Origin: a virus
Length of the DNA: 42,309 nucleotides
Strand: one strand, 5' to 3'
Virus record (IMG/VR): IMGVR_UViG_3300035682_000070
Coordinates: 1-42,309 of that record
Below the pieces are notes generated by a model, which was given only the letters and a program-made list of their open reading frames with translations, was not told the DNA's origin and did no database searches. The position numbers and the translations under genes are program-made. Shown piece by piece: positions 10,592-33,240 of the stretch (within the stretch, counting starts at the first letter, position 1; every line of letters begins with the position of its first letter).

Positions 10592-13500
10592 TTATGTATA
10601 CTTTATTTTTTCATTTTTATCTAATAAAAATAATCTAGCTTCTTCTATTCTCCTATCTTTTAAACCTGGTAAATAACCACTTTCAACTCCAGTTATTGGT
10701 CCATTTAATATACCTTGAGCAGCGGCTTCAAAGTCATTATTTGATATACCATCTTTTATTTCTCCACCGTAAACTTTTTTAATGATGAAATTAGACCCAG
10801 CATTATAACCTAAACTAATTAAAGTTGCTTTTTGATATTTATTTAACTTATTCCAATTTGATACACCTAAATCATTTTTTAATGCTGGTATAAAATTATT
10901 AACTATTTGATAAATTAATGTGTTGTCAGCGGTTTCTTTTGTGAATATAGTATTTGAGTCAACCTTTGTCAATTGACTAGCCCCTGTTTTTAATATCTTA
11001 TCAGTTCCATACCCACCTCTTAAGTCACCTTCATCATTACTTGGTCTAGCTGTAAAAGTACTATTAGCCTCTTTTTTAGCTATATAATTAGCAGCTATAG
11101 ATATATGGTCATTTTCCCAATCACTTATTGTTTTACCACCATAGGTACCATTTTTTATAATTGCTTTAACTGTTGTTGGGGCGAAACCAGGTGGTAATTT
11201 ATCAACCTTCATTTGTTTTCTAGCTTCAGTTTCATTTGCACTTTCTGTTGAACCAGCTTCATAATAATTACCAGTTCCTACTATTTTTTTACCTTTATAA
11301 TATTTATTGTCAGTTTTTTTGATATATAATCTATATTCATTAATATCACTACTATCTATAAAATAACCATCACTTAATTTCTTTTCTTTTAATCCAATAG
11401 TATTACTTAAATTACCACCAACAATATATGCAATATTATTATTTACATCAACTTTATAAACAACATCACAATGTGATGCGGTATATCCCCCTGACCTTTT
11501 GGTACAAAGTAAATCACCAACCCCAGCTTTTATTTTTAAACCAGCTTGTAATGGGAATAATTCGTAACCTTTTTTACCATTTATAGCCGCAGTTATGTAA
11601 TCATAATGTAATGTTGATTTTGGAAAATCAGGGTCACCGCTAAACATAATGTAGGATGTGAAAACTGCACTCCAAGGTGCTGAGTCATTTGCATACTGAG
11701 AACCACTACTACCTGGTGTTACTTTAGCATACTCATTTAAATAATCAACACCATCTTTTTCATCCAATTGACCATTTTTCCATTTTTTAATTTCTTCTTC
11801 AGCTGTTTTTTGTAGTTTAGGTCTGTCTGGTATTGTGCTACCTTCTATAGTTTTGTTAGCTGGTAAATTAGCAATTAAATCAGCGTAATATTTAGCAACA
11901 AAACCACCTTGTGGTCCAGATGACCTAATATTACTACCTCCACCTGGTGTTGTTCCAACCAAATTCATTAACATTGTTGCTTTATCAACCAATGGTGTTT
12001 TAGTTTTTTTGGTTCTATTACCTTTAAATGAGGTTATCATACTATGTGGTTTTATACTGTGATTAACTTTATAAATCAAGTATGCACCTCTAAACATTGG
12101 TATATTATTTAATTGGAAATACATCATAGGTTGAATCATTGGTGCCCCCAACATTTCAATTTCTGCACTATAAGACCTTGTTTGATAAACATTAAATAAA
12201 TTATTACCTCTATATGTTGCTTTACTTTTATCACCACCTTGAGAAATGTCTTCAATTGTTTGTAGTGATTCCATTGTTTCGGTAAATTCTCTTTGGTCCA
12301 ATTTAACATTTTTAAAATAATTTTGGTTTTGTTGACCATAATTAACTGAAAAAACTGGAACTAATGAATCTAATGAATTTGATTCTATGGGTTCTGAAAA
12401 ATCTTCAGCACCTTCGGAAATTATAAATTTTCCACTAGCATCTTTATGTATTGATAAACCATCATCAGGATATACTGAACCAACACCTAAATCTAAATTG
12501 GTTGATGTTTGTCCAACATAACAGCAAACAAATGATGGACCTGTTCCACTAAATGTTATTGGGTCATTATAACTGTATGGTGTGAATACTGATGATAACT
12601 CATCTATATTATTAAAGTTTATAAATGTTGGTAATGTGAAAAAATTAAAGTTATTATCAGATAATATTTTATTAGCAACATCAAAAAAACTTTGATTATA
12701 ATTACTTCTAATTAAATCGGTTACTGAATTAATATTAATATAAAATTCATCACCAATATCAGCGAATGCTCTATCAACAAATCTAAATGTATCAATTAAA
12801 GTTGATGTATCAGCACTTTCTCCTCTGAATTTTTTAGCGTATTGTAAATCTTTACTATTCTTAGCGTTTGCACCACATTGACTAAATACTGAACCTTTAA
12901 GTTCACCATTTAACCATTTATCATTTATTGATGATAAGGTTCTATATATAATTAATTTAATTGTATTATCATCAGTTGTTCCAAAAATTTCTTGCTTCGC
13001 TTCTTCTTCTTCACTTTTTACAACTTCTTTTGAATAAGTCTCATTTAATTTTATTAATCGCTCAAATAATGATTTTAAATATATATTTAACTCTTTGTCT
13101 CTAATTTGTATAGGGTTAGATGAATTTAATTTTTTAACATTAACTTCACTACTATTATTATGCCAAATACCTGGATTATTATTCTGTAATATAACTGGTT
13201 TTGTTAATAATGAAACTAAATTACCCATTACTGTTGTATTAGGTTTTAAAACTGTGAATAAATTGTTTTTATTTTTTTCTGATTCACCATCAAATTGTTG
13301 ATATATACTAATTAATTCATAATTATCAGTAACTTCTTTTGTGAATAGTTTTTCTAATTCTTTTCTATCTATTTCATATTTACCGTTTCCAATATTATTT
13401 TGATAATCTTTAACTTTAGAATATTTAGATATCCAATTATCGTTTATGTTTTTTACTAATTCTAAATTATTTTTTATTAATTGCCACCCATTTTCATCTT

Positions 13501-16500
13501 TAACCCAATTCTCAAAATAATTTATAAATTCATCTCTAACTTGTTTGGGTAAATTAATTAATGTTCTATCTATTGGTGTGTAAGTATTTGATTCTTCACC
13601 ATAAGAACCAATATAACCACCAAAAAACATACCTTGTGGATTAACGTAAGCTGACTCTTCTGAATTATCATATCTATGTGTATATAAAAATTGATTAGGT
13701 GATGGTTGTTTTGAAATTTCTTTAGGTACTAGTGAGAATTTATTATCGTTATTATCCACATATTTAATAGGGTCATTATAAGGTAAAAAACTAAAAACAG
13801 GTTTATTTTTATATGCCTCCCTAATTCTCCATAACATTGCACCAATAAATAAAACCCAAGCTTTTGGTGCATGAATAAATGCTGAATTTACACTAAACAT
13901 TGCTTTATGACTAAGTACCCTAGTGTTTGAATCTTCAACTTTACCTATTCCCCAATCTGTGTATTTATCAAACATTAATACTTCAGATAAATATTCACCA
14001 ATTGTTTTAACTCCTTGCCATGGTATTGTGTGTAAAAATAATAACGCTCTAACTTCATCACTATCTTGCATATAATAAAAATAACTACCAAATAATGATA
14101 AATTTATATTAGAAAAATTACTTTCATTATTTACTGAACCAAACTCAATAAATGGTAAATATAAATTTGCCCCTTGATTAAAATATGTACTCAATAATGT
14201 TTTATTTTTTAAATAACCATTTTTAACCCACTCTTCTCTTGCGTTATCTTTAGGTAAATTACCTCTCAGTACATCATTAAAAATAATATTTGTACCTTTA
14301 TTGTATAAAACTTTTTTATTTTCTATGTCAGTATTAATATATGATAAATAAGTGCCATTATAGAAAATAGTTCTATCTACTGAAAATTGAGTATAAAAAG
14401 CAATAATTGATGAATCTATAGCTGTATCTGTTTTCCATTGTGGTTCACCCATGTATTTATTCAATTCATTACCACTAGTGTAGGTATAATTTAATTTACT
14501 AATCTCTAATGCTGAATAATTACCAGATAAAAATTCAGTTACTTCTAATACACTCTGTGGGTTATCTTTAGTGGCTGGTTTTATAATCGCATCATATACC
14601 GAATCAACATTAATTACTTTAGCTGTTTTAGCAAATACTAAGTTGTAAGTTTCAACACTTTTAGCACCGAATGATGGTTTCATTGTTTTACTTAAATATT
14701 GCTCTTCTTCATATATTTTAAATAAATAAGAACCATTATCTTCTTCTTTAAAGTTACTATATCTACTATTTATAGGGTTAGAAATAAATAATACTGAATT
14801 AGATAAGTCTTTTAATCCTTTATTACTTTTAAACTTACTGTTACTATAAAAATCTTTACCATCAAATGAACCACTAATAGGTATATAAGTTCTATCTTTA
14901 CTATCAGATATATAAGTATATTTATAATAAAAATTATCTTCTTCTTCTGATTTAGTTGTTGTTACGTTACCACTATCAATTCCTAATGTGCCTGTTGAAA
15001 CTTTTAAATTTATAAGTTCCATTATAGGTTTTTTCTTACCAGTAGGGTTTATTATTTTATCTGAACCTTCTAAACCTATTTTATCTATAATATTAGTAAC
15101 TAATTCATCAGTTGATTTACTATCAATTAATTGTGATATAAAGGTTTGACCAGCTTGCCTTTTTTTTCTTGATGCTTCAACGATATTTTCAGCTTCAAAG
15201 CTAGCCATTAATTCTAAGTTACTTTCTTTTTTACCACCACTAACAAAAGGTATTTTATTTTCAAATGCTGATACACCTATAGACATAAATGCTCGTAATA
15301 ATATTAAACGTTTTACTGCATCAGTATTTCCTGGTTCAACTACTTTAATATAAGGATTTTCAGTTAATAAATCATTAACTGGTGTATCTGCTGTACATAA
15401 TGGGTACCAAGCATCTTTAATAGTTGTTGGGTCTGAATCTATATCAAGTCCAGCGTTTTCTATTTCTTTATCTAATTCTTTATCAAATAATGCTACATTA
15501 ACCAATTCTTTAAGCATTTCTTCAACAAATACAACTTCATTAATATTATATGGGTTTATAGTTTTAACCGAACCTAACCATGTTTCAACATAACCTTCTT
15601 TATCTTTCTTTTCTCTATATTCTGGCCAGGCATATATAACACCATTATTCACATCTCCTTCATGTACATTTAAATTTGCTTGAGTGTCTACTAACTTTTT
15701 GAATTCAGCAGTTCTATTTTGATTACTTTGTCCAGCTACCGATACATCTCTTAGTACTTCCAAAAATATCTCACTATTAATCGTTAAAACTCTAAATATA
15801 TTCCTAATTGTTGGTTCAAAACCTATTATCCCAATTGCGGTTTCAGATAGTGTATTATTAAATTCACTAGTTGTTTTTTTTTGATTTTCTTCTATCTTAC
15901 CTCTTTTGAAATTAATTTCACCGTATAAAGCTTTAAGGTTATATATATCAATTTTGGAACTATCAGATGCTGATGATGTACCAAGCGTTCCGATTGTTTT
16001 TAATAAATCATTAAGTTTATCAAGACCTGAACCTGAACTGGCATATTGATTATTACCACTTGTTTTTTGAATTATTAAATTAACATTATTTGAGTCGTTA
16101 ATTTCTTTTTTTGTGATATCTAATGTTATTTTAATATCATTTAATTCATTTTCACTAAGCATTAAACCACCAATATCTATTTTACCATTAATGTTACTTA
16201 GTAAATTGGTTAATTTATCTTTATACTCTTTAAAAGCTTTTTCGTATTTAGTCTTTGTATCACTATTTGATGGTACACATAATACATCACCATTAGGACT
16301 TCTAAAGAAATTATTCGATGGATTACCATCATATATAGCGTTGCTTAATTTATTAATTTCACCTTCAAGCTCCGTTATTGCTGAATATATTTCTGGATAT
16401 GTTTGAATTTGTGATGCTGTATCATCTTCCGCTGATATTTTCCTTAAACTATTATTTAAGTCAACAAAACTTTTAAGCATTTCATCAATAGTTATAACCA

Positions 16501-17194
16501 AATTTGAATTTGCACCATATTCAGCTTGTTTTAATTTTAATTTTTCTTGACCAGCTTTTGTTCTTACGGCTGCCCTAACCAAACCCATTAAAATATCAGT
16601 TAACATGGCGTATGTATATCCCATGAAATCAGCTTGTATCTCAAAATTACCAGTATCTGAATTAAATGATGCGTTCCATCTTAACATGTGTAAACAGTAA
16701 TTAACTGTTTTTCCATAAAAACCTTTTACTTTTAAACTAAATATAGGGTATGGTAATTCAAAGAACATTCTATATTTTGACATGGTTCCTTGAGATAAAA
16801 TAGCATTACCCCTAACATCAATAAATTTAATTTTAATTAATGGTGTGTTAGCTGTGTCAAATTCAATATCAATACTTTCAATACCTAAACTTTCATAATC
16901 ATCAACTTTATCGGTTGTGGTATTCATTATTTCTAATGCAATAGCATCATTATATCTAGTTGTTAATGATGGTTGAGGTGAAGTACTATTAACTCTACTA
17001 CCTTCTATAAACCCAACTGTTAAATCTTTACCTCCAGAATTTTTAGCTTCTTGTCCAGAATAAATAATAGTTCTACCTTTTTTATATGATGTAAATTCAA
17101 CCTTAATTGACAAATCCTCTGGATTTACCATTGTGTTATTGGCTAAATTTGGGTCATACCATAAAACTCTACCACTTGTTTCTTTACTATCCAT
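10592..17194 (-). CDS. Giant baseplate hub / tail lysin with two C-terminal wall-hydrolase-like domains (2200 aa)
   Basis: ATG at 17194 (MDSKETSGRVLWYDPN) overlaps the gp53 stop by 8 nt and is chosen over an upstream TTG at 17248 inside gp53. Residues 1 to about 230 look like a baseplate structural domain. Near residue 1680, PMIQPMMYFQLNNIPMFRG, then YLIYKVNHSIKPHSM, resembles gp27/gpD-type hub proteins. About 1740-1950 resembles DUF2272/CHAP-like folds (PWSAVFTSY, ASHCDVVYKV, YIVGGNLSNTIG), with Ser where cysteine peptidases have Cys. About 2030-2200 is a GH24/T4-lysozyme-like domain: a Glu in AKKEANSTF, GYGTDKI, QKATLISLGYNAGS, LPGLKDRRIEEARLF. I infer a tail-tip protein that perforates the wall during injection. 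The middle 1,400 residues are unassigned. Confidence 0.85.
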   Translation of the reverse strand: MDSKETSGRVLWYDPNLANNTMVNPEDLSIKVEFTSYKKGRTIIYSGQEAKNSGGKDLTVGFIEGSRVNSTSPQPSLTTRYNDAIALEIMNTTTDKVDDYESLGIESIDIEFDTANTPLIKIKFIDVRGNAILSQGTMSKYRMFFELPYPIFSLKVKGFYGKTVNYCLHMLRWNASFNSDTGNFEIQADFMGYTYAMLTDILMGLVRAAVRTKAGQEKLKLKQAEYGANSNLVITIDEMLKSFVDLNNSLRKISAEDDTASQIQTYPEIYSAITELEGEINKLSNAIYDGNPSNNFFRSPNGDVLCVPSNSDTKTKYEKAFKEYKDKLTNLLSNINGKIDIGGLMLSENELNDIKITLDITKKEINDSNNVNLIIQKTSGNNQYASSGSGLDKLNDLLKTIGTLGTSSASDSSKIDIYNLKALYGEINFKRGKIEENQKKTTSEFNNTLSETAIGIIGFEPTIRNIFRVLTINSEIFLEVLRDVSVAGQSNQNRTAEFKKLVDTQANLNVHEGDVNNGVIYAWPEYREKKDKEGYVETWLGSVKTINPYNINEVVFVEEMLKELVNVALFDKELDKEIENAGLDIDSDPTTIKDAWYPLCTADTPVNDLLTENPYIKVVEPGNTDAVKRLILLRAFMSIGVSAFENKIPFVSGGKKESNLELMASFEAENIVEASRKKRQAGQTFISQLIDSKSTDELVTNIIDKIGLEGSDKIINPTGKKKPIMELINLKVSTGTLGIDSGNVTTTKSEEEDNFYYKYTYISDSKDRTYIPISGSFDGKDFYSNSKFKSNKGLKDLSNSVLFISNPINSRYSNFKEEDNGSYLFKIYEEEQYLSKTMKPSFGAKSVETYNLVFAKTAKVINVDSVYDAIIKPATKDNPQSVLEVTEFLSGNYSALEISKLNYTYTSGNELNKYMGEPQWKTDTAIDSSIIAFYTQFSVDRTIFYNGTYLSYINTDIENKKVLYNKGTNIIFNDVLRGNLPKDNAREEWVKNGYLKNKTLLSTYFNQGANLYLPFIEFGSVNNESNFSNINLSLFGSYFYYMQDSDEVRALLFLHTIPWQGVKTIGEYLSEVLMFDKYTDWGIGKVEDSNTRVLSHKAMFSVNSAFIHAPKAWVLFIGAMLWRIREAYKNKPVFSFLPYNDPIKYVDNNDNKFSLVPKEISKQPSPNQFLYTHRYDNSEESAYVNPQGMFFGGYIGSYGEESNTYTPIDRTLINLPKQVRDEFINYFENWVKDENGWQLIKNNLELVKNINDNWISKYSKVKDYQNNIGNGKYEIDRKELEKLFTKEVTDNYELISIYQQFDGESEKNKNNLFTVLKPNTTVMGNLVSLLTKPVILQNNNPGIWHNNSSEVNVKKLNSSNPIQIRDKELNIYLKSLFERLIKLNETYSKEVVKSEEEEAKQEIFGTTDDNTIKLIIYRTLSSINDKWLNGELKGSVFSQCGANAKNSKDLQYAKKFRGESADTSTLIDTFRFVDRAFADIGDEFYININSVTDLIRSNYNQSFFDVANKILSDNNFNFFTLPTFINFNNIDELSSVFTPYSYNDPITFSGTGPSFVCCYVGQTSTNLDLGVGSVYPDDGLSIHKDASGKFIISEGAEDFSEPIESNSLDSLVPVFSVNYGQQNQNYFKNVKLDQREFTETMESLQTIEDISQGGDKSKATYRGNNLFNVYQTRSYSAEIEMLGAPMIQPMMYFQLNNIPMFRGAYLIYKVNHSIKPHSMITSFKGNRTKKTKTPLVDKATMLMNLVGTTPGGGSNIRSSGPQGGFVAKYYADLIANLPANKTIEGSTIPDRPKLQKTAEEEIKKWKNGQLDEKDGVDYLNEYAKVTPGSSGSQYANDSAPWSAVFTSYIMFSGDPDFPKSTLHYDYITAAINGKKGYELFPLQAGLKIKAGVGDLLCTKRSGGYTASHCDVVYKVDVNNNIAYIVGGNLSNTIGLKEKKLSDGYFIDSSDINEYRLYIKKTDNKYYKGKKIVGTGNYYEAGSTESANETEARKQMKVDKLPPGFAPTTVKAIIKNGTYGGKTISDWENDHISIAANYIAKKEANSTFTARPSNDEGDLRGGYGTDKILKTGASQLTKVDSNTIFTKETADNTLIYQIVNNFIPALKNDLGVSNWNKLNKYQKATLISLGYNAGSNFIIKKVYGGEIKDGISNNDFEAAAQGILNGPITGVESGYLPGLKDRRIEEARLFLLDKNEKIKYT

Positions 17195-17504
17195 AAAGTA
17201 CTTTATAATTATTAATTTGGTCAATATACCTTTCAATTGCTGAATCAAAAGGATATGGGATTCTTATAATATCACCGTCTTTTATATTAAATTCCAAACC
17301 ACCATATTGTGGATTTGCCAACATAATTAAATAACCATGATATGGGTTATTATAATAAGTTTGGCTCAATTTGTCAAGTCTTGTTCTTGTTAATTTATAA
17401 ACAACACTCTTATCTGTTGATAATACTGGTATATTAACAAACGGTACTGGTAATATTTTACCATTATTTCTGAACTTTTCGTATCTGTCGTAGTATATTG
17501 CCAT
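17187..17504 (-). CDS. 53: Baseplate wedge protein, T4 gp53-like (LysM-type fold)
   Basis: This 105-aa protein matches the gp53 pattern: YYDRYEKFRNNGKI at the start, then TRTRLDKLSQTYYNNPYHGY, LIMLANPQYGG and IKDGDIIRIPYPF. The last part is the LysM-like core that in T4 helps join baseplate wedges around the hub. T4 gp53 is longer (about 196 aa), so this is a compact version. ATG at 17504, 12 nt after the stop of the 1680-aa gene. Its end overlaps the hub gene by 8 nt (ATGGATAG). Confidence 0.82.
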   Translation of the reverse strand: MAIYYDRYEKFRNNGKILPVPFVNIPVLSTDKSVVYKLTRTRLDKLSQTYYNNPYHGYLIMLANPQYGGLEFNIKDGDIIRIPYPFDSAIERYIDQINNYKVLYG

Positions 17505-17516
17505 AATATTTTATTT

Positions 17517-20500
17517 TTAAGTTTGTAAAAGACTTGGGTAATAAAAACCACCTGGTTTACCAACTATAATTGTCGCTTTACTTATTATAGTTGAAGCTTG
17601 TTTAATATTTAAATTATAATAACCATCTGGTATTTCTAAACTATAATTACCACCAATATCTTTACCTAATCTATAACCATTACTTGCTAAAGATGCGATA
17701 CCTTTAGGTTCGTTTTCTTCAAATTTAACAATTTCTTCATAATGATACTTATTATCAATAATACCACCAGTTATTATATCTGGTAACGGTATTGATGTTA
17801 TACTTATTACTATACCAGAATCAACATAAGGTTTAACTAAATTAGTAGGTATAAAATTACCAACAATTATGTTTTTACTATTCATTATTATAGTTATATT
17901 ATTTTGTTTACCAGTTGAGTCAAGTAATGATTCTGTTTTGGTTACAATTATTGATTTAAAATTGAGTAATTTTGGATTATATTCACTATCAGTTAATGGT
18001 TGTGAATTTTCGGTTCCAGAATTTTCAACAACTTCTTCCTTAACTTGGTCTTTAACTGGTTCTACTTTATTTGTTAATCCAGCTGTGTCTTGAGCCAATG
18101 GTGCTTTATTTTTTTCTCCCGTTATATTTTTTTCACCATCAACAATTTCAGTAACATTTCCATTAATTTTAATGGTATCTGGTCTTGGGTCATATATTTC
18201 ATTATTTGCATAATAGTTAAATGATACAGCATTTTGCAATCTATTAATTGGTCCATTAAGACTTGACCCACCAATAAATGCAAATGACATATCAACATTA
18301 CAAATCATTGGTTGAACCCCAATACCTTCTGGATTTAAATCCCAAACCAACGGTTCAAAACTAAATGATAAATTTTCAATAACAATTTTTGTGTGATAAA
18401 AATCACCAATTCTTAATATGCAAACTGGTGGTCTACCAAAAGCCAAGTTATTTGGGTTGTTATTACTTCCAGCACCATCTGTTGGTCCTTGTCTCATACA
18501 TTGTTGCAAGAAGGTTAATCTCGCATTAAAACCTTCTGGTGTTGTTGAATGAAATGCTGGTTGGAAATATTTAATTTGTTCCTTAATTGAATTATAAACA
18601 ACTGGTGATGATTGTTCCAGTTTTTCAAAATAATCACATTCTGTGTAAAATCTTGATGTTGATATCGCTGGTGTTTTTATTGGTTCATCATTTTTTGATT
18701 CCTTTTCAGTACCAGTTTCATTTTTTGGTATTAAAGTTTCATCAATAACAAATTCAACTTTAACATACCTATTAGCTTTACATGATATGGTATCTGTATC
18801 ACTTTTTTCTGTACAAGGATTTTTAGTATCACCTCTAGATACTGATATTCCTTCACCTGTTTCTGAAATAATTCTATCATTAAGTGGTGGTGTTTTGAAT
18901 ATATTAGTTTCCAACCATTTTTTAACATTTTCAGCTCTAAGTATTGATAATTCTTTATTTCTTGCTGCTGAATCAGTACCTTGATTACTGGCGTATCCTT
19001 TAACAATAACCTTACAAGTTTTACATTTATTTTTTAAATATAATTCCAAATCTTTATGATATTCTGGGTCTCTCCATGATTTATATGTTTTACCTTCTAA
19101 TGTAACTGGTTTAAAGAAAGTTGCATTTGGTGAACCACCAGCAGCATTTAATCCGAAATCATTTCTATCTGGTTGTCTTCTACCTAATGTTCCGACTGGT
19201 GTTTTATTACAATATGGTCCTTTAATTTTATTTTCTGTATCATATTTTGATGGTGCAATTGATGACCATTTTTTCTTTCCAGCAAATGTATATTCATAAC
19301 ACATCTCATTATAATCACCAATACCAAAACCATCACCACTTGCATTTACCTTATAATTAATTAAACATTCTGGTTCATCAACTTCCCATATTTTTGCTGT
19401 ATTATCATCACTTCCTGTTACAATTTTTGTTCCGTCTGGACTAAATTCAACATCATTAACAGTGTCGTTATGACCAACTAATGTTTTTAATAAATTACCA
19501 GTATTAACTTCCCATATTTTTGCTGTATTATCAAAACTACCAGTAACTATCTTTGTACCATCTGGACTAAATTCAACATCAAAAACAGCGTTAGTATGTC
19601 CAACTAGAGTTTTTAATAAAATACCAGAGGATACATCCCATGTTTTAGCTGTTTTATCACTACTTACTGTAACTACTTTAGTACCATCTGGACTAAATTT
19701 AGCTACCCAAATAATTCTAGTATGACCATTCAATGTGAATAATAAATTACCAGTTAATATGTCCCATATTTTTACAGTTTTATCAGCACTTGCTGTAACT
19801 ACTTTTGTTCCGTCTGGGCTAAATTCAGCATAATCAACATTTCCTGTATGACCATTCAATGTAAATAATAAACTACCAGTTGATGTATCCCATATTTTTG
19901 CAGTATTATCATAACTTGCTGTTACGATTTTTGTTCCGTCTGGACTAAATTTAGAATCAGAAATTGAACCAGTATGACCATTCAATGTAAATAATAAATT
20001 ACCAGTGGTAACATCCCATATTTTTGCTTTTTTATCATAACTTGCTGTTACAACTTTTGTTCCGTCTGGACTAAATTCAACATCACTAATAACTTCATTG
20101 TGCCCTTTTAATGTTTTTAATAAATTACTGGTATTAACATCCCATATCTTTGCTGTTTTATCATCACTTCCTGTTACAATTTTTGTTCCATCTGGACTAA
20201 ATTTAACATCATTAATAAGTTTGGTGTGTCCTTTTAATGTTAATAATGAACCATCACATCGCCCATCTTCATAATTTGGGTATCTATCAACATCATAAAC
20301 GTCATTTGGGAAAAATACTTCAAAAGAATCTGGTGGGGTTTCTTTAGTAATTGTAACCTCTGGTTTCTTTTGAGTATTAACAACTTCTGTTTTATCTTTT
20401 TCATCAGTTGTGATTAAATCATCCAAATCTCTATAATCAACACATCCAGCAAAATAAGATGCAAGTAAATCATCAAAATTACCACCTTGTTGTTTTGTCT

Positions 20501-22559
20501 TACTTGATATGAAATTCATATAATTTGGATGGTCAATAATTATCTTCCAACTTAAATTTCCACTTCTTTCTGTATTATTATAAGTATACATCGGTTCACC
20601 TCTTCCAATAAAATTGTGTTTATCCCAACTTGCTGACGTTGTTTCACTAAAAGTGATATCATAAGGTGGGAACCACATAATTCGTCCTTTAAGATTACCA
20701 TCACCTGGACCTCTTTCACAAGGTAGTAAATTAAAATCATTACCAGCCCAAGCTAAATTTTCTATTGAAAACATAAACTTAGTATTATCTACAAGTCTTT
20801 TTGAAATAGGTGCTATTTTAACAAATCCATTATCTTGTAATACAGAAGCACCTATATTACCTCTGTAAACTTTTTTATTATCTCTACCAACGTATTCACC
20901 ATCTAATCCCTTGTGTTTTTGTAAGTCTCCAACTTGAGCATATCTGTCATATGTTGTCCATGTTCTACAAAATACATTTTCAGGTCCATTATCAACACCT
21001 GTCAATATAGTATTTCTACCTAATACTCCACTACCCTTTGATGTGTATTTACCAACACTAGATACAGCTGAATTAATTTGAGTAGGTGAAGAACTTATTA
21101 CACCGTGACCAGTTACTAAAGTTCGCATATTATCACTATTGAATAATTGCTGTGTTTTGTATAATAATGTTTTTTTATTTTTTTCATCACCTTCAAACAA
21201 AGCATCAGAATCACCATTTAATGCTATATTAGAGTCGATATTATAATATAAGTCACCCCAACCCCAAGAATCTTTATATAAAAATGCTCCATGTTTTTGT
21301 GAATTGTAATCAACACTTCTAAAATATTCTTTATCCCAACCATCAATATTTATTTGAGATGATAATTCATAATTTGTTGATGATATTGGTGAATCTCTTG
21401 AGCTATTTAAAAAATCTTTAATAGTACCATCACCATTTCCTCCAAAATATATATTTGGATTAAGACCATCATCACCACTATTATATCCTGGTGCATAACC
21501 TTGTCTTAATGTTTTTCCGTTTGGACTATCAATTATTGTATTTCTTCTTAAATTATCAAATAGTGATTTAACTTGACCTGAACCAGTATTTTTAATAATC
21601 TCATTACCTCTTTCAATATTACCAACACTGATAAAACCACCTTTATTATCAAATGAATATATACCTTGTTGTAATAAACTAACTGGTGATTGAGTTCCCA
21701 ATATATTTGCTGCAAAATTTAAAACTTTACCTACTGCACCTTCTGGTGTGGTTATTTGATAGTTTGAATTAATCAGAGAACCACCTTGGATGAGATTTAA
21801 GACATTTAAATTCAATTTACCTAGTGTTTCTTGCTGTAAGCCAAAAGCTGCGTTATATCCAACGTGAGCTAATAATTGTTGACCACCTATATTTCCTAAC
21901 GGAGTATCATTGATTACACCAGTAGCTCCTAACACTCTTCCTAACAATGTTGACCTAATATCTTGATTTGCTATTAAACCACCTCCAGTGAAATCAAATC
22001 CAACACCTTGACCAGTTGCTACACCAGCTATTATATCAAGTGCATTTGTTGAAGGGCCACCAATATTTAAATTATTATTTTCATCTAAGTAAGAAGTTAA
22101 ATTTTGATATGTTGATACTGCCTGTGTATTTAAATCAATAGTTAATTGTTTTGGAACATCAACATAAATATTTTTTAATGTCAATTCTTTTCTAATTGTT
22201 TCACTATTAGTTAAAACACCATTTGAATAAAAATTTTCATTTAATAAATCATTATTATTATTATATGGACCTACGGTACTATTGATTGAAGGATTATAAA
22301 TTATATTAACTTGAGTATAATCATTAACCCCACCTTGATATTGATTTACTATCGTATTATATTCTTGATATATTTGATATGTATCATCAATGCTATTTGA
22401 CGGTTGCACCGCATTTGGTAATGTTTCAGTTTGTGCTGGAAAACCAATACCAGATAATAATGATTGTAAACCATTATCAACTACCGTATCGGTAACTAAG
22501 TTTTTTAATAATAAATAATCCCTAAATGACGGAGATAATGTATTTATTGAATTTGGCAT
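17517..22559 (-). CDS. Baseplate/tail structural protein with OmpA-like domain carrying an inserted seven-bladed WD40 propeller (1680 aa)
   Basis: Domains in order: residues 1 to about 550, Asn/Gly-rich structural region. About 590-690, a conserved-looking core (IMWFPPYDITFSE, FIGRGEPMYTYNNTERSGN) possibly related to tail-tube/cap folds. About 745-760, a strand (FEVFFPNDVYDVD) like the first strand of an OmpA-type domain. About 768-1060, seven WD40 repeats of exactly 42 aa (GH, FSPDG, KIWD). About 1065-1285, the rest of the OmpA-like domain (WRDPEYHKDLELYLKN, VIVKGYASNQGTD, LSILRAENVKKWLE, NRYVKVEFV). About 1300-1680, further structural sequence. The place between tape measure and gp53 indicates a baseplate component. 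The OmpA-like domain may touch peptidoglycan and the propeller may bind a host protein or glycan; both are inference. Confidence 0.85.
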   Translation of the reverse strand: MPNSINTLSPSFRDYLLLKNLVTDTVVDNGLQSLLSGIGFPAQTETLPNAVQPSNSIDDTYQIYQEYNTIVNQYQGGVNDYTQVNIIYNPSINSTVGPYNNNNDLLNENFYSNGVLTNSETIRKELTLKNIYVDVPKQLTIDLNTQAVSTYQNLTSYLDENNNLNIGGPSTNALDIIAGVATGQGVGFDFTGGGLIANQDIRSTLLGRVLGATGVINDTPLGNIGGQQLLAHVGYNAAFGLQQETLGKLNLNVLNLIQGGSLINSNYQITTPEGAVGKVLNFAANILGTQSPVSLLQQGIYSFDNKGGFISVGNIERGNEIIKNTGSGQVKSLFDNLRRNTIIDSPNGKTLRQGYAPGYNSGDDGLNPNIYFGGNGDGTIKDFLNSSRDSPISSTNYELSSQINIDGWDKEYFRSVDYNSQKHGAFLYKDSWGWGDLYYNIDSNIALNGDSDALFEGDEKNKKTLLYKTQQLFNSDNMRTLVTGHGVISSSPTQINSAVSSVGKYTSKGSGVLGRNTILTGVDNGPENVFCRTWTTYDRYAQVGDLQKHKGLDGEYVGRDNKKVYRGNIGASVLQDNGFVKIAPISKRLVDNTKFMFSIENLAWAGNDFNLLPCERGPGDGNLKGRIMWFPPYDITFSETTSASWDKHNFIGRGEPMYTYNNTERSGNLSWKIIIDHPNYMNFISSKTKQQGGNFDDLLASYFAGCVDYRDLDDLITTDEKDKTEVVNTQKKPEVTITKETPPDSFEVFFPNDVYDVDRYPNYEDGRCDGSLLTLKGHTKLINDVKFSPDGTKIVTGSDDKTAKIWDVNTSNLLKTLKGHNEVISDVEFSPDGTKVVTASYDKKAKIWDVTTGNLLFTLNGHTGSISDSKFSPDGTKIVTASYDNTAKIWDTSTGSLLFTLNGHTGNVDYAEFSPDGTKVVTASADKTVKIWDILTGNLLFTLNGHTRIIWVAKFSPDGTKVVTVSSDKTAKTWDVSSGILLKTLVGHTNAVFDVEFSPDGTKIVTGSFDNTAKIWEVNTGNLLKTLVGHNDTVNDVEFSPDGTKIVTGSDDNTAKIWEVDEPECLINYKVNASGDGFGIGDYNEMCYEYTFAGKKKWSSIAPSKYDTENKIKGPYCNKTPVGTLGRRQPDRNDFGLNAAGGSPNATFFKPVTLEGKTYKSWRDPEYHKDLELYLKNKCKTCKVIVKGYASNQGTDSAARNKELSILRAENVKKWLETNIFKTPPLNDRIISETGEGISVSRGDTKNPCTEKSDTDTISCKANRYVKVEFVIDETLIPKNETGTEKESKNDEPIKTPAISTSRFYTECDYFEKLEQSSPVVYNSIKEQIKYFQPAFHSTTPEGFNARLTFLQQCMRQGPTDGAGSNNNPNNLAFGRPPVCILRIGDFYHTKIVIENLSFSFEPLVWDLNPEGIGVQPMICNVDMSFAFIGGSSLNGPINRLQNAVSFNYYANNEIYDPRPDTIKINGNVTEIVDGEKNITGEKNKAPLAQDTAGLTNKVEPVKDQVKEEVVENSGTENSQPLTDSEYNPKLLNFKSIIVTKTESLLDSTGKQNNITIIMNSKNIIVGNFIPTNLVKPYVDSGIVISITSIPLPDIITGGIIDNKYHYEEIVKFEENEPKGIASLASNGYRLGKDIGGNYSLEIPDGYYNLNIKQASTIISKATIIVGKPGGFYYPSLLQT
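19380..20252 (-). repeat. Seven tandem 126-nt WD40-coding repeats
   Basis: The anchor TCTGG(A/G)CTAAATT recurs at 19435, 19561, 19687, 19813, 19939, 20065 and 20191, exactly 126 nt apart. Each unit codes 42 residues with GH, FSPDGTK(I/V)VT and K(I/T)W(D/E). Repeat identity is high at DNA level. The block lies inside the 1680-aa gene. Confidence 0.97.
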
Positions 22560-22849
22560 ACCTTTAATTCTTTATCAATAAATACTAGATTAATTAAAAT
22601 TTTAAAAAAATAAATATATATTAATTATTATATTAAATATATTATATATTTTATTATATATTAATTATTATAATATATTATTATATTATATATATTTTAT
22701 TATTATATATTAATTATTATAATATATATTATATTATTAAGTATAATATATTATTAAGTATATTATATATAAATAAAAAAAAGGAAATTTTTTCACAAAG
22801 TCAATAGGAAAATTATAATTTAACAAAAATTTAACATTAATTAATTAAA
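22560..22849. repeat. Gene-free gap with a 152-nt G/C-free tract and imperfect AT repeats
   Basis: No gene is seen in this 290-nt gap between the tape measure and the 1680-aa gene. Bases 22589-22740 contain only A and T. Within it a unit of about 38 nt (TATATTTTATTATATATTAA...) occurs at about 22645-22682 and again at about 22691-22729, with a partial copy near 22618. It would melt easily. It could be a replication or recombination site, a promoter region, or simply mutational drift. Confidence 0.8.
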
Positions 22850-28794: not shown

Positions 28795-29445
28795 ATGAGG
28801 AATTTAATTAGTAAAATCTTAAAAGAATATTTAATTAACGAACTAAATATTTCATATATTAAACAATATAAAGAAAATATATCAATATTTGAAAATACAG
28901 TAACAACTTTAATATCCAAAAATAGTGAAAATAATAATAAGTTATATTTATTCGTTGGTTTTCAAAATATTGGTAATAATATAATGGAATATTATTATTC
29001 CTTTATATTATATAACAATAATAATCCAATATCTGACTTTATGAATAAACGTTCAGAGGTTAGTAAATATTTACCAGATGATATTAAAAATAAAAATTTA
29101 ATTTTACCAATTATAATAGATATGACTAAAATATTATTAAATAATAATCTACCAGAAAATATTTTAAGAAAAACTTCAGAAATATTGGATAATGATAATT
29201 CTATTCAAAGATACGAAGTTATCGGTAATATATTAATAAATGAATATAACTATAAACTTGAAAAAACCTATCAGGAACACGGAATAATGTATTGGTTATA
29301 CAAGAAGAATAATTCAAATAATAATCAAACGTTAAATGAAGAATATTTAATTAGCTCGCTACCCACAACGGAAGATACGAATAGAATGGTTAAACGAGAT
29401 TTTCTACCAATATTTAATGAACATCTTAAAAATAATCCTATCTAA
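28795..29445 (+). CDS. Hypothetical plus-strand protein (216 aa)
   Basis: Apart from one endonuclease this is the only convincing gene on the plus strand. The 216-aa protein starts MRNLISKILKEYLINELNIS, is very Asn/Ile-rich, and has no Cys cluster or membrane helix. The middle is beta-rich (NKLYLFVGFQNIGNNIMEYY). I do not recognise it. Its stop codon overlaps the tail of the opposing endonuclease gene by 8 nt, so the two genes converge. Its orientation suggests it is a separately acquired cargo gene. Confidence 0.7.
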   Translation: MRNLISKILKEYLINELNISYIKQYKENISIFENTVTTLISKNSENNNKLYLFVGFQNIGNNIMEYYYSFILYNNNNPISDFMNKRSEVSKYLPDDIKNKNLILPIIIDMTKILLNNNLPENILRKTSEILDNDNSIQRYEVIGNILINEYNYKLEKTYQEHGIMYWLYKKNNSNNNQTLNEEYLISSLPTTEDTNRMVKRDFLPIFNEHLKNNPI

Positions 29446-30907
29446 TATTTAAAACATATTTCTTATTTCCACAATCATATACCCTATATTTCTTCAATCC
29501 AAACATAATCTCCCTCTCACTCTTATCCTTATCATAACCCATCTTAATCAATTCTGATTTTCTATATTTATATCTATACTCTCTATTCAAACCAAAAACA
29601 TACCAATAATTTGGTCTGCTATCATGAACAAATTCAAATCCCAATGTTTCATACACTCCACCCTGGCTCCATCTCCTATCAGCATAACTTATAACCTTTC
29701 TTGGTTTATAATTCTTAACAAAATATTTTAATAACCTTGATGCCCCACCAATAACATTTAAATCAAGCTTGTTGCAAAATCTTAATAATTCATATTCACA
29801 TTCCTCACCTTTCAACCCCATATTCTTTCTTAAATCACCAAAACTCATCAAACTAACCAATTCATCATTATAATATAAACCAATCCTAACTTTAGATTTA
29901 ACAAATCCTTGAATATGATTCTTATCCAAGAACTCCCTACATTCTGATGAACCAACTTCCCTTATCTTACACTTTCTAGCATAAACCCTATCATCAATCA
30001 ATCCCAATATATTTCTTATTCGACTCTTAACAATATCATTCTTATATAACCACTCATCCTCAAATATATGGATTAACCTAACCCCAACCTTCTCACAATC
30101 TTCAGTTTTATTCAAATGATAATTATTATCCTTATATAATTCAGAATGCCAAAATAAACCATTATATTCAAATCCAATTTTTTTTGAAGGAATATAAACA
30201 TCAATATCTTTTGGATATATAATATTATTAACAGAAGTTTCAACAACTTCCTCAATTGACTTAATATAATCAATTAACGCATTCTCTCCAGAACTAACAC
30301 CACAATTTGAACACTTAATACACCCATAACCTTTTCTTAAATGATTATCTGGTAATTGCTCAAATTCACCATGTTCTGTACATACAATCTTAACTAAACT
30401 CTTTGCATTAACATATTCAACCAATGAATAATCATATTTATCCCCATGAATAATCTTAGCTTTAACTATAAAATCATCAACACTATCAACCTTAACTTTT
30501 CTCTGCTCATCAATTGAACATTTAAAACAACCATATTTGCCATTTAAATGAACCTCTGGACTTTGTTCAAATTCCCCATGTTCAGGACATATAATCTTAA
30601 CATTAGTTTTATTATTTACATAATTAACCAATGAATAATCAAATTTATTATTATATTTTATATTGGATTCAGATATGAATTTATCAATACCTCTACTTCT
30701 ATTTTTAGCCAATGACTCAAATGAACATAACTTACAACCATTACTACTTAAATGTGTTTCAGGTGTCTGCTCAAATTCACCATGTATTGGACATATTATC
30801 TTAATATTGGTTTTGCTATTAATATAGTTAACCAATGAATAATCAAACTTATTATTATGCTTTTTACGAGCATTATCTAAAAAAGTAACATATCGTTTAT
30901 TATTCAT
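29438..30907 (-). CDS. Putative homing endonuclease (Vsr-like/EDxHD type) with three N-terminal zinc-binding repeats
   Basis: ATG at 30907 (MNNKRYVTFLDNARKK) is chosen over a TTG at 30937, since the TTG abuts a promoter box. The 489-aa protein has three repeats of about 65 aa (KFDYSLVNY, CPxHGEFEQxPExHL, GCxxC), a DNA-binding pattern common in phage mobile endonucleases. A nuclease core of the Vsr-like type follows (about 200-290: SGENALIDYI, DIDVYIPSKKIGFEYNGLFW, HIFEDEWLYK). The C-terminal 190 aa contain NHIQGFVKSKV, ELVSLMSFG, NVIGGASRLLKYF and SYADRRWSQGG. It is clearly related to the plus-strand endonuclease at 31624. It probably cuts a phage lacking it, near the tube gene. Confidence 0.85.
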   Translation of the reverse strand: MNNKRYVTFLDNARKKHNNKFDYSLVNYINSKTNIKIICPIHGEFEQTPETHLSSNGCKLCSFESLAKNRSRGIDKFISESNIKYNNKFDYSLVNYVNNKTNVKIICPEHGEFEQSPEVHLNGKYGCFKCSIDEQRKVKVDSVDDFIVKAKIIHGDKYDYSLVEYVNAKSLVKIVCTEHGEFEQLPDNHLRKGYGCIKCSNCGVSSGENALIDYIKSIEEVVETSVNNIIYPKDIDVYIPSKKIGFEYNGLFWHSELYKDNNYHLNKTEDCEKVGVRLIHIFEDEWLYKNDIVKSRIRNILGLIDDRVYARKCKIREVGSSECREFLDKNHIQGFVKSKVRIGLYYNDELVSLMSFGDLRKNMGLKGEECEYELLRFCNKLDLNVIGGASRLLKYFVKNYKPRKVISYADRRWSQGGVYETLGFEFVHDSRPNYWYVFGLNREYRYKYRKSELIKMGYDKDKSEREIMFGLKKYRVYDCGNKKYVLNIR

Positions 30908-30922
30908 AACAGTAAATAAAAT

Positions 30923-30972
30923 AAAAAGTTTGTACAAATATAGTTAAAATTCTAAATTTATACAAACTTTTT
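30923..30972 (-). terminator. 12-bp inverted repeat enclosing the endonuclease promoter; possible terminator of the tube transcript
   Basis: AAAAAGTTTGTA (30923-30934) and TACAAACTTTTT (30961-30972) are perfect inverted copies. In the minus direction the second arm runs into TTTTTATTTTATTT. The tube gene stops 79 nt upstream. Confidence 0.5.
30935..30966 (-). promoter_or_regulatory. Bacteroidota-type promoter of the minus-strand endonuclease
   Basis: TTTG (30966-30963), 20 nt, TATATTTG (30942-30935): both boxes match consensus. The ATG is 27 nt downstream. The -33 box lies in one arm of the inverted repeat and the -7 box abuts the other. Confidence 0.72.
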
Positions 30973-31050: not shown

Positions 31051-31539
31051 TCAAAAGAGCAATATAGCTCGGTCGAATCGTAAATCCGCTGTGATGTCTG
31101 CAATACCATCATCATCCATTGATAAATCACCAAAATTAACGTTAGTAAGCATAGTACTTTGTAATTCCCATTTTTCGATAACCACACCAGTAGGGTCAAG
31201 CATTTCTAGTTCTACATTTTTCTTATAACCAGCAGCATAACCTTGTCTACCAGTTACAGATTCTGATTGTAAACGAACCCATTCCATAATAGCTTGAGCA
31301 GCAGAAGGACCAATAGGGTCTCTAAAAGTTACACTAATTGATTCCCAAGTAAATCTACCGATAACCCAAGTTGATGTATTTAAGAAAGGTATCTCAACCT
31401 CGTTTTGAGTAATTGATGGTCTTGAAGCCGATGCTAACCACCATTCTTGTATACCTAAATCAGCTGGGAATCTTAGAAGCCATCTATTCTTCTTTTTCGG
31501 CTCATACGGAGTAGGCATCTTCATTAATAAATCTGACAT
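31051..31539 (-). CDS. 19: Tail tube protein, T4 gp19-like
   Basis: This 162-aa protein has the size and pattern of T4 gp19 (163 aa). It contains NRWLLRFPADLGIQEWWLAS, then ASRPSITQNEVEIPFLNTS, then FTWESISVTFRDPIGPSAA and VTGRQGYAAGYKKNVELEML, and ends with a strand pair including ADLRFDRAILLF. It would stack as hexamers to form the inner tube through which DNA passes. ATG at 31539. It is bracketed by two related endonuclease genes, one facing away on each side, which separates it from the sheath gene. Confidence 0.92.
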   Translation of the reverse strand: MSDLLMKMPTPYEPKKKNRWLLRFPADLGIQEWWLASASRPSITQNEVEIPFLNTSTWVIGRFTWESISVTFRDPIGPSAAQAIMEWVRLQSESVTGRQGYAAGYKKNVELEMLDPTGVVIEKWELQSTMLTNVNFGDLSMDDDGIADITADLRFDRAILLF

Positions 31540-31623: not shown

Positions 31624-33240
31624 ATGAAATTAAATGATTTTTTTTTAACAGATAATAAAAATGGCTCTAAGTGTAGGGAGAATTATTTAATTAAAAATTA
31701 TCCTGATATACATAAAATAGTTATTAATTATATTAACGATGCTTGGTATAATGAATTACCTTTTAAGGAAAAGATTTGGTATTGTATTAATAATGTAAAT
31801 ATTAAAAAGGTATGTAAATTTTGTAGTACTGAATTAAAATTTAAAAATTCATTGTCTGGTGGGTATGGTGATTATTGTTCAATATCATGTGCAAATAAGT
31901 GTGATGAACATAAAGATAAAGTTAAGGTTACTAACAATATTAAATACGGTTCTGATGTTCCATTTTTTGATGAAGTTATTAAAGAAAAAAGTACAAAGAC
32001 ATTAATGGAAAAATATAACGTTGATAATATATTCAAGAACAAGGAATACATTAAAGAAAAAACTTTATTAAAACATGGTGTTAATCATATTGCTAAATTA
32101 GAATCAACAAAAACTAAAAGAGCTAACACTAATATAGATAGATACGGTGTAAGCACTCCAATATTAAAATCTGAAAATAGACATAAGGTATATAACAAAA
32201 GAAGAGAAATATTCCTTGAAAAATACAAGGATTTAAACATAATTAATGGTTATGGTAATGATATTATAATTCATTGTGATAAATGTAATTCTGAATATGT
32301 AATTAATAGAGCTTTGTTATCACATAGGTATTTAATAACTGAAAATCCTTGTACAAATTGCAACCCTATAAAACAAGGTGTATCAATAAGTGAGAATATG
32401 TTAAGAGAATTTATAACTGATTTAGGGTTATCATTTAAACCTAATGATAGGAATATAATAAATCCTCTTGAATTGGATATATATATTGAATCTAAGAAGG
32501 TTTCTATTGAATATAATGGATTATACTGGCACAGTAGTAAATACGTTAATAGTGACTATTATTTAAAGAAAACAGAACTATGCAATGATAAGGGTATTAA
32601 ATTAATTCATATATTTGAAGATGAATGGGTTTATAAACGAGATATTGTTAAAAGTAGGATAAGAAACATATTGGGATTAATTGAAAATAAGATTTACGCT
32701 AGGAAATGTGAAATAAGGGAAGTTAAGACAAATGAAAAAACACTATTTTTAAATAACAATCATATTCAAGGAGCCGTTGGGTCTTTAGTTAATATAGGTT
32801 GTTATTATAATAACGAATTAGTTAGTTTAATGTGCTTTTCAAAAAAGAGGGTTATATTAAAAAACAAAGACGAGGATGATAAATATGAACTAATTAGATT
32901 TTGTAATAAATTAGATACTAATGTTATTGGTGGGGCATCAAAATTATTATCGTATTTTATTAAGAATTATAAACCAAAGGAAATAATAAGTTATGCTGAT
33001 AGAAGGTGGTCAACTGGTAATTTATATGATAAGCTTGGATTTAAATTTGATAATTATTCAAAACCAAATTTTTATTATGTTATTAATGATACTAGAGAAC
33101 ATAGGATTAAATATCAAAAACATAAATTAATTCAGAAGGGTTTTGACAAAGATAAAACTGAAGATGAAATTATGTCAGAAAATGGAATATACAGAATATA
33201 TGATTGTGGAACAATTAGATATAGTTTAAAATTAGAATAA
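31624..33240 (+). CDS. Putative homing endonuclease (Vsr-like/EDxHD type), plus strand
   Basis: A 538-aa protein. The N-terminal half has a four-Cys knuckle (KVCKFCSTELKF, GDYCSISCANKC), several repeats with a K-Y-G/N-V pattern (NIKYGSDVPFF, LMEKYNVDNIF, LLKHGVNHIAK, IDRYGVSTPI), and a second Cys pair set (CDKCNSEY, CTNCNP). The C-terminal 280 aa parallel the minus-strand endonuclease: LELDIYIESKKVSIEYNGLY, LIHIFEDEWVYKRDIVKSRI, YARKCEIREV, NVIGGASKLLSYF, SYADRRWSTGN. The core acidic and His residues are kept, so it looks intact. It lies between the sheath and tube genes on the opposite strand and has its own promoter, typical of a free-standing mobile gene. Confidence 0.85.
   Translation: MKLNDFFLTDNKNGSKCRENYLIKNYPDIHKIVINYINDAWYNELPFKEKIWYCINNVNIKKVCKFCSTELKFKNSLSGGYGDYCSISCANKCDEHKDKVKVTNNIKYGSDVPFFDEVIKEKSTKTLMEKYNVDNIFKNKEYIKEKTLLKHGVNHIAKLESTKTKRANTNIDRYGVSTPILKSENRHKVYNKRREIFLEKYKDLNIINGYGNDIIIHCDKCNSEYVINRALLSHRYLITENPCTNCNPIKQGVSISENMLREFITDLGLSFKPNDRNIINPLELDIYIESKKVSIEYNGLYWHSSKYVNSDYYLKKTELCNDKGIKLIHIFEDEWVYKRDIVKSRIRNILGLIENKIYARKCEIREVKTNEKTLFLNNNHIQGAVGSLVNIGCYYNNELVSLMCFSKKRVILKNKDEDDKYELIRFCNKLDTNVIGGASKLLSYFIKNYKPKEIISYADRRWSTGNLYDKLGFKFDNYSKPNFYYVINDTREHRIKYQKHKLIQKGFDKDKTEDEIMSENGIYRIYDCGTIRYSLKLE

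Follow-up and report, generated by a model that had tools for sequence, protein, structure and literature searches.

A WD40 propeller predicted to be nested in the OmpA-like domain of a candidate baseplate protein from uncultured phages

The DNA analysed here is a metagenomic virus record of IMG/VR (IMGVR_UViG_3300035682_000070), and its whole length of 42,309 bases is referred to below as the window. Its minus strand encodes a protein of 1680 aa among genes for a gp25-like wedge protein, a hub-like protein and a tape-measure-like protein (Table 1); residue n of the 1680-aa protein begins at window position 22559-3(n-1). Downstream of it, homologous loci have the gp25-like gene in 87 of 88 cases and the hub-like gene in 86 of 87; upstream, the tape-measure-like gene is present in 56 of 66. 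This gene order supports the assignment of the 1680-aa protein as a baseplate component of a contractile-tailed phage. The cluster resembles that of T4-type baseplates in having a gp25-like wedge protein, sheath, hub and tape measure, but T4 gp53, gp48 and gp54, which were tried as homologues of the 1680-aa family, were rejected at hhalign probabilities of at most 0.3 and show no detectable similarity to it. The top cultured match of the sheath is Microcystis phage Mel-JY01, and the only two relatives in GTDB genomes, in a Holophagaceae MAG and in a Prochlorococcus single-cell genome, do not settle the host. A gene for a protein of 162 aa (31051-31539), which adjoins the sheath gene and has 95% protein identity to its relative in the homologous stretch L010, is probably the tail tube gene; it is flanked by HNH/homing-endonuclease genes on opposite strands (29438-30937 and 31624-33240). 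Immediately upstream of the 1680-aa gene lies an AT-rich tandem repeat of about 160 bp (22613-22774), and a tRNA-Thr called by ARAGORN within its coding sequence (21563-21656) is probably a false positive.

Table 1. Window coordinates of the 1680-aa gene, its predicted domains and the neighbouring tail genes
Feature	Position	Strand	Basis
Hub-like protein, 2218 aa	10592..17248	minus	C-terminal DUF2272, Pfam 9.8e-12; weak lysozyme-like matches
gp25-like baseplate wedge protein, 105 aa	17187..17504	minus	phrog_7145, E 8.8e-6
Propeller-bearing candidate baseplate protein, 1680 aa	17517..22559	minus	ORF; gp25-like gene after it in 87/88 homologous loci
C-terminal core, most conserved part of the family, aa 1302-1461	18177..18656	minus	Alignment
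Rest of beta1-alpha1 loop and OmpA-like alpha1-beta2-alpha2-beta3-beta4 (predicted), aa 1063-1276	18732..19373	minus	Model; Pfam OmpA
Seven-bladed WD40 propeller (predicted), aa 771-1062	19374..20249	minus	PF00400 x7; AlphaFold2 model; Foldseek; flanking cysteines
OmpA-like strand beta1 and surrounding residues (predicted), aa 744-755	20295..20330	minus	Alignment with empty-site homologues; model
Tape-measure-like protein, 851 aa	22850..25405	minus	phrog_794, E 2e-10

In a Pfam search the whole 1680-aa protein matched WD40 with E = 1.6e-78, which is far beyond chance, and PF00400 gave seven separate matches (19386-20246) of 35-50 bits each against a cut-off of 27. The preliminary description of this locus had counted seven repeats of exactly 42 residues, and this was confirmed: seven gapless 42-aa units cover aa 775-1068 (19356-20237), and Tandem Repeats Finder places a 126-bp array at 19380-20247. 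Across the seven blades 17 positions are invariant, G3, H4, D26 and W32 among them. The suggestion that the repeats make one complete closed propeller is borne out by a confident AlphaFold2 model, in which the propeller has a pLDDT of 91 and 28 strands, and by Foldseek, in which it superimposes on v13WRAP-T with a TM of 0.98 (0.8 Å, 48% identity) and on WDR5 with a TM of about 0.92; the predicted structure is thus a closed seven-bladed ring. WD40 proteins are indeed rare in phages, with a single weak tblastn match among 50,697 phage records. Two cysteines, Cys768 and Cys1065 (codons at about 20256-20258 and 19365-19367), bracket the propeller. The same pair occurs in two other complete carriers of a propeller (L008 and L010) and similarly in the relative L022, and both cysteines are absent from the propeller-less relative L023; a disulfide between them may close the neck of the propeller.

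The surroundings of the propeller have the features of an OmpA-like domain. The AlphaFold2 model, which spans aa 741-1276 and was built with 65 homologous segments, has a mean pLDDT of 91 and a pTM of 0.76, and runs from strand beta1 through the 28 propeller strands and a partly uncertain loop to alpha1-beta2-alpha2-beta3-beta4. Strand 1 corresponds to FEVFFPND (aa 746-753) and appears as E6-9 of the model in a block with a pLDDT of 95; its predicted pairing with the OmpA sheet is based on strand assignment and confidence rather than on measured contacts. The C-terminal flank scores 25.9 bits against Pfam OmpA (PF00691; cut-off 27.2), the homologues L011 (32.7 bits) and L013 (36.5 bits) exceed this cut-off, and a PDB search with a profile built from members that lack the propeller finds Pal with E 8e-8. 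The beta-alpha-beta-alpha-beta-beta fold of OmpA_C-like domains is present in the models of both the window protein and the propeller-less L018, and the OmpA-like part of the latter finds OmpA-like domains in Foldseek; the full-length L018 model was poor overall (pLDDT 54) and was used for this part alone. In OmpA domains an Asp and an Arg bind diaminopimelate, and the two positions can be compared across the family: the Arg is kept in 67 of 67 members, and the Asp is replaced by Ser in 61 of the 62 members with a letter at that position, which makes peptidoglycan binding by this domain doubtful.

The model places the closed propeller between strand 1 and helix 1 of the OmpA-like domain, in agreement with the insertion proposed in the preliminary description. 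Flanks that fail to form one domain, or a propeller set between two independent domains, were not seen, since the model nests the propeller and a relative with an empty site was found. Less accurate was the claim that the OmpA fold resumes straight after the propeller, as about 85 residues (aa 1066-1150) intervene before helix 1. These belong to a long loop between strand 1 and helix 1 that is also present in propeller-less homologues, so the propeller sits within a loop that was already long. Homologues were found in at least 591 IMG/VR stretches, of which the best 80 were kept and about 65 compared. The distance from strand 1 to a conserved FGLN motif is 384 aa in the window, 419 aa in L008 and 420 aa in L010, and 8-83 aa in the complete homologues other than propeller carriers. 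It is 81 aa in L023, which has FNVYFPNDVYDVDKYPLYENGLQNPLTDPILYKDNVTGANFGL at the position of the window's propeller, and whose C-terminal core is 87% identical to that of the window (this core, aa 1302-1461, has a mean column identity of 82% in the family alignment). Judged by alignment, L023 is a near-exact empty site, and the continuous OmpA-like domain anticipated in homologues is present without a propeller in complete members outside the carriers' group as well.

This family occurs widely among uncultured phages, of which some are on contigs above 300 kb, and was not found in 50,697 cultured phage records. Most of its members are without the propeller, which is therefore not needed for the core role of the protein. 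Propellers occur in a single small clade only. A peptide-based search of viral contigs for the propeller gave one distant match, and a motif scan found clear WD40 arrays in the known carriers, in a new carrier (L103) and in the contig L104 only. What occupies the slot differs among relatives. The window has seven blades, and L008 and L010 have eight each; L103 and L015, two contigs of one sample, both break within the same duplicated blade, the first stopping and the second starting there, so that together they probably encode about eight. In L022 the slot holds an insert of about 400 aa in which no Pfam family is above its cut-off. It can be aligned with the propeller of the window, at 33% identity in the best BLASTP segment (E 3e-11 in a single comparison), and is bracketed by cysteines at the same places as in the carriers, which suggests a different, propeller-like domain in the same slot. 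In the part of the L022 gene (L022:3-4984) that encodes the OmpA-like domain, close to the GxAS motif, the reading frame shifts and splits the gene over two frames; this is either real or an assembly error. In a tree of the N-terminal part, where L009 was labelled a carrier although its contig ends before the slot and L022 was left out, L023 nests inside the carriers, its grouping with L008 and L010 having a support of 0.98 and the deeper branch 0.16. This position makes loss or exchange of the propeller likely in L023, with repeated gain as the alternative.

Over most of 53 kb the DNA of L008 and L010 is 96-97% identical, and where they can be aligned they diverge most in the propeller and in parts of the hub gene next to it. 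In the protein, the N-terminal flank and the C-terminal core are nearly identical and the propeller is 60-67% identical in central windows. The propeller has dN 0.245 and dS 0.39, against dN 0.020 and dS 0.08 in the N-terminal flank. Values for the remainder of the OmpA-like domain fall in between (dN 0.138, dS 0.17), so the hotspot is wider than the propeller. The raised dS of the propeller indicates that import or rapid repeat turnover, besides selection on residues, explains the divergence, and misaligned repeats could account for part of the raised distances. Since the hub-like gene (10592-17248 in the window; about 11500-15800 in L113) contains the other stretches that diverge strongly between L008 and L010, it may encode a further region of host contact, or a partner for the propeller.

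The blades of one array also differ among themselves. Positions 7, 9, 25 and 27 are the top-face sites described for fungal HNWD proteins (PMC2873952), and this register was set on the phage blades by the residue types given there, after a first look at the blades. In the window dN/dS reaches 6.5 at these four positions, compared with 0.35 elsewhere, and in L103 the two values are 3.6 and 0.47; the excess is significant by permutation in both (p 0.0007 and 0.003), while the same test was not significant in L008 (p 0.07) and L010 (p 0.18). A control array of recently amplified, unrelated WD40 repeats in L104 shows the pattern even more strongly, with a top-face dN/dS of about 11; top-face diversification is therefore general to amplified WD40 arrays and not evidence of an arms race by itself, and the test was dropped as proof of one. 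The control lies on the minus strand of a viral-labelled contig (L104:3489-5225) in an open frame of 579 aa with 12 very similar repeats. For all seven blades of the window, which have a mean nucleotide identity of 74%, the nearest nucleotide relative is a blade of the same array, which is consistent with amplification or concerted evolution. A diversity-generating retroelement is not indicated, as nine records, which may be fragments, were searched for a reverse transcriptase and gave none.

A domain that is optional and exchangeable, varies in blade number and diverges much faster than its scaffold fits best with a role in host contact. Host recognition was one of two roles suggested in the preliminary description, and it agrees with the localised divergence and with the varying content of the slot. 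Our preferred reading, of moderate confidence, is that the propeller serves the baseplate as a contact module, exchangeable and fast-evolving, which would bind a variable structure of the host cell. It builds on computed features, namely the nested architecture (from prediction and homologues), the empty site, the change in blade number, the hypervariability and the syntenic setting, and it supposes presence of the protein in the virion, exposure of the propeller, binding to the host, a route of diversification and the disulfide. Beside gp25 and the hub, the protein would be anchored in the baseplate through its conserved N- and C-terminal parts, with the OmpA-like domain between them as a stalk or as a secondary envelope-binding domain. 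The long loop past OmpA strand 1 would be the slot in which the propeller is seated, its neck probably pinned by Cys768-Cys1065. Blades that duplicate or recombine with one another, and sequence imported from other phages, could alter blade number and top-face residues, while the WD40 framework would preserve the fold as the blades change. One may speculate further, and quite tentatively, that blades are reshuffled and mutated and whole propellers swapped so as to track host surfaces, an antibody-like logic that would work without a diversity-generating retroelement and resemble that of HNWD receptors.

WD40 propellers commonly act as protein-interaction scaffolds, and the propeller could accordingly be a structural or assembly platform in the baseplate that binds another phage protein and not the host, the other role named in the preliminary description being that of an assembly platform. 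The second L008/L010 hotspot in the adjacent hub gene would agree with this, as the two could co-vary as partners. Such a role appears unlikely to us, since the propeller is missing from the propeller-less homologues examined, including L023 within the carriers' own clade, and since divergence much faster than that of the flanks, together with a changing blade number, would be unusual for an assembly interface.

Among solved structures, those nearest to the OmpA-like domain in sequence and in fold include Pal, the TolB/Pal complex and PorE of type IX secretion, the last with a propeller and an OmpA_C domain in a single chain (PMC7192894); DUF2272 and weak lysozyme-like matches are present in the adjoining hub gene. 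From this it could be argued that the propeller and the OmpA-like domain act on the envelope after attachment and, as the phage penetrates, engage peptidoglycan and partners in the periplasm or outer membrane. We find this rather improbable: the replacement of the diaminopimelate Asp by Ser suggests that peptidoglycan binding may be lost, and conserved periplasmic partners are not expected to drive strong divergence of the propeller. The likeness to PorE and TolB-Pal, a propeller and an OmpA-like domain in one chain or complex, also has limits, as their domains are in tandem or separate and the PorE propeller has five blades, whereas the phage propeller, of seven or eight blades, is predicted to interrupt the OmpA fold.

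In the window the array stays in frame, its 42-aa period is intact and the framework residues (the 17 invariant positions) are preserved; dN/dS is 0.35 outside the four top-face positions, complete arrays have seven or eight blades, and carriers keep the bracketing cysteines. These observations argue against the propeller being a recently amplified, largely neutral repeat in a permissive loop, with no binding function, an explanation we hold to be very improbable even though WD40 arrays keep amplifying from single blades (PMC9218822), the loop accepts many lengths, L023 does without the propeller and top-face variation is generic to such arrays, as in L104. An assembly chimera was rejected as scarcely credible: all sequences are metagenomic and contigs do break at the array (L103 and L015 in the duplicated blade, L009 just before it), but in three carriers complete on a single contig (L008, L010 and the window) the propeller, of a different sequence in each, lies in an open frame at the same slot.

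If the host-contact reading is compared with known systems, the nearest in structure are the repetitive bacterial WD40/WRAP propellers (PDB 2ymu, 7big and 7bie), which likewise have seven closed blades of very similar units; these are free-standing, natural or designed, whereas the phage propeller is predicted to be nested in an OmpA-like baseplate domain. The fungal HNWD receptors HET-D, HET-E and HET-R of Podospora share the variable repeat number and the same top-face diversification (PMC2873952, PMC12222747), but their repeats are more than 80% identical, compared with the 74% of the window blades, and they are immune receptors, whereas the phage propeller is, by gene order, part of a tail protein. 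HET or NACHT domains were found neither among the 25 best Pfam families shown for the protein nor in either flank. The receptor-binding protein of Staphylococcus phage phi11 is similar in its host recognition at the tail tip, and the paper on it discusses a propeller (PMC4901313), but the term WD40 does not occur there. Repetitive WD40 propellers, combinations of a propeller with OmpA and variable receptor-binding domains of phages are thus each already known. In the titles and abstracts of the literature, searched without being exhaustive, we found no description of a phage baseplate protein with a WD40 propeller inside its OmpA-like domain, or of a change of blade number in such a propeller. 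If the host-contact reading is true, the WD40 ring would serve phages as a host-recognition module spliced into a second folded domain. The ring fold is better known from eukaryotic scaffolds and immune receptors. The occupants of the slot (empty, seven-bladed, eight-bladed and diverged) would then make a natural series for relating blade number and top-face residues to specificity.

Long C-terminal regions are present in some members of the same family, of about 1150 aa in L054 and L075 and of about 600 aa in L090-L094. Those of L054 and L090 were scanned and gave no Pfam match, and the C-terminal extensions of these members may represent another site of domain addition.
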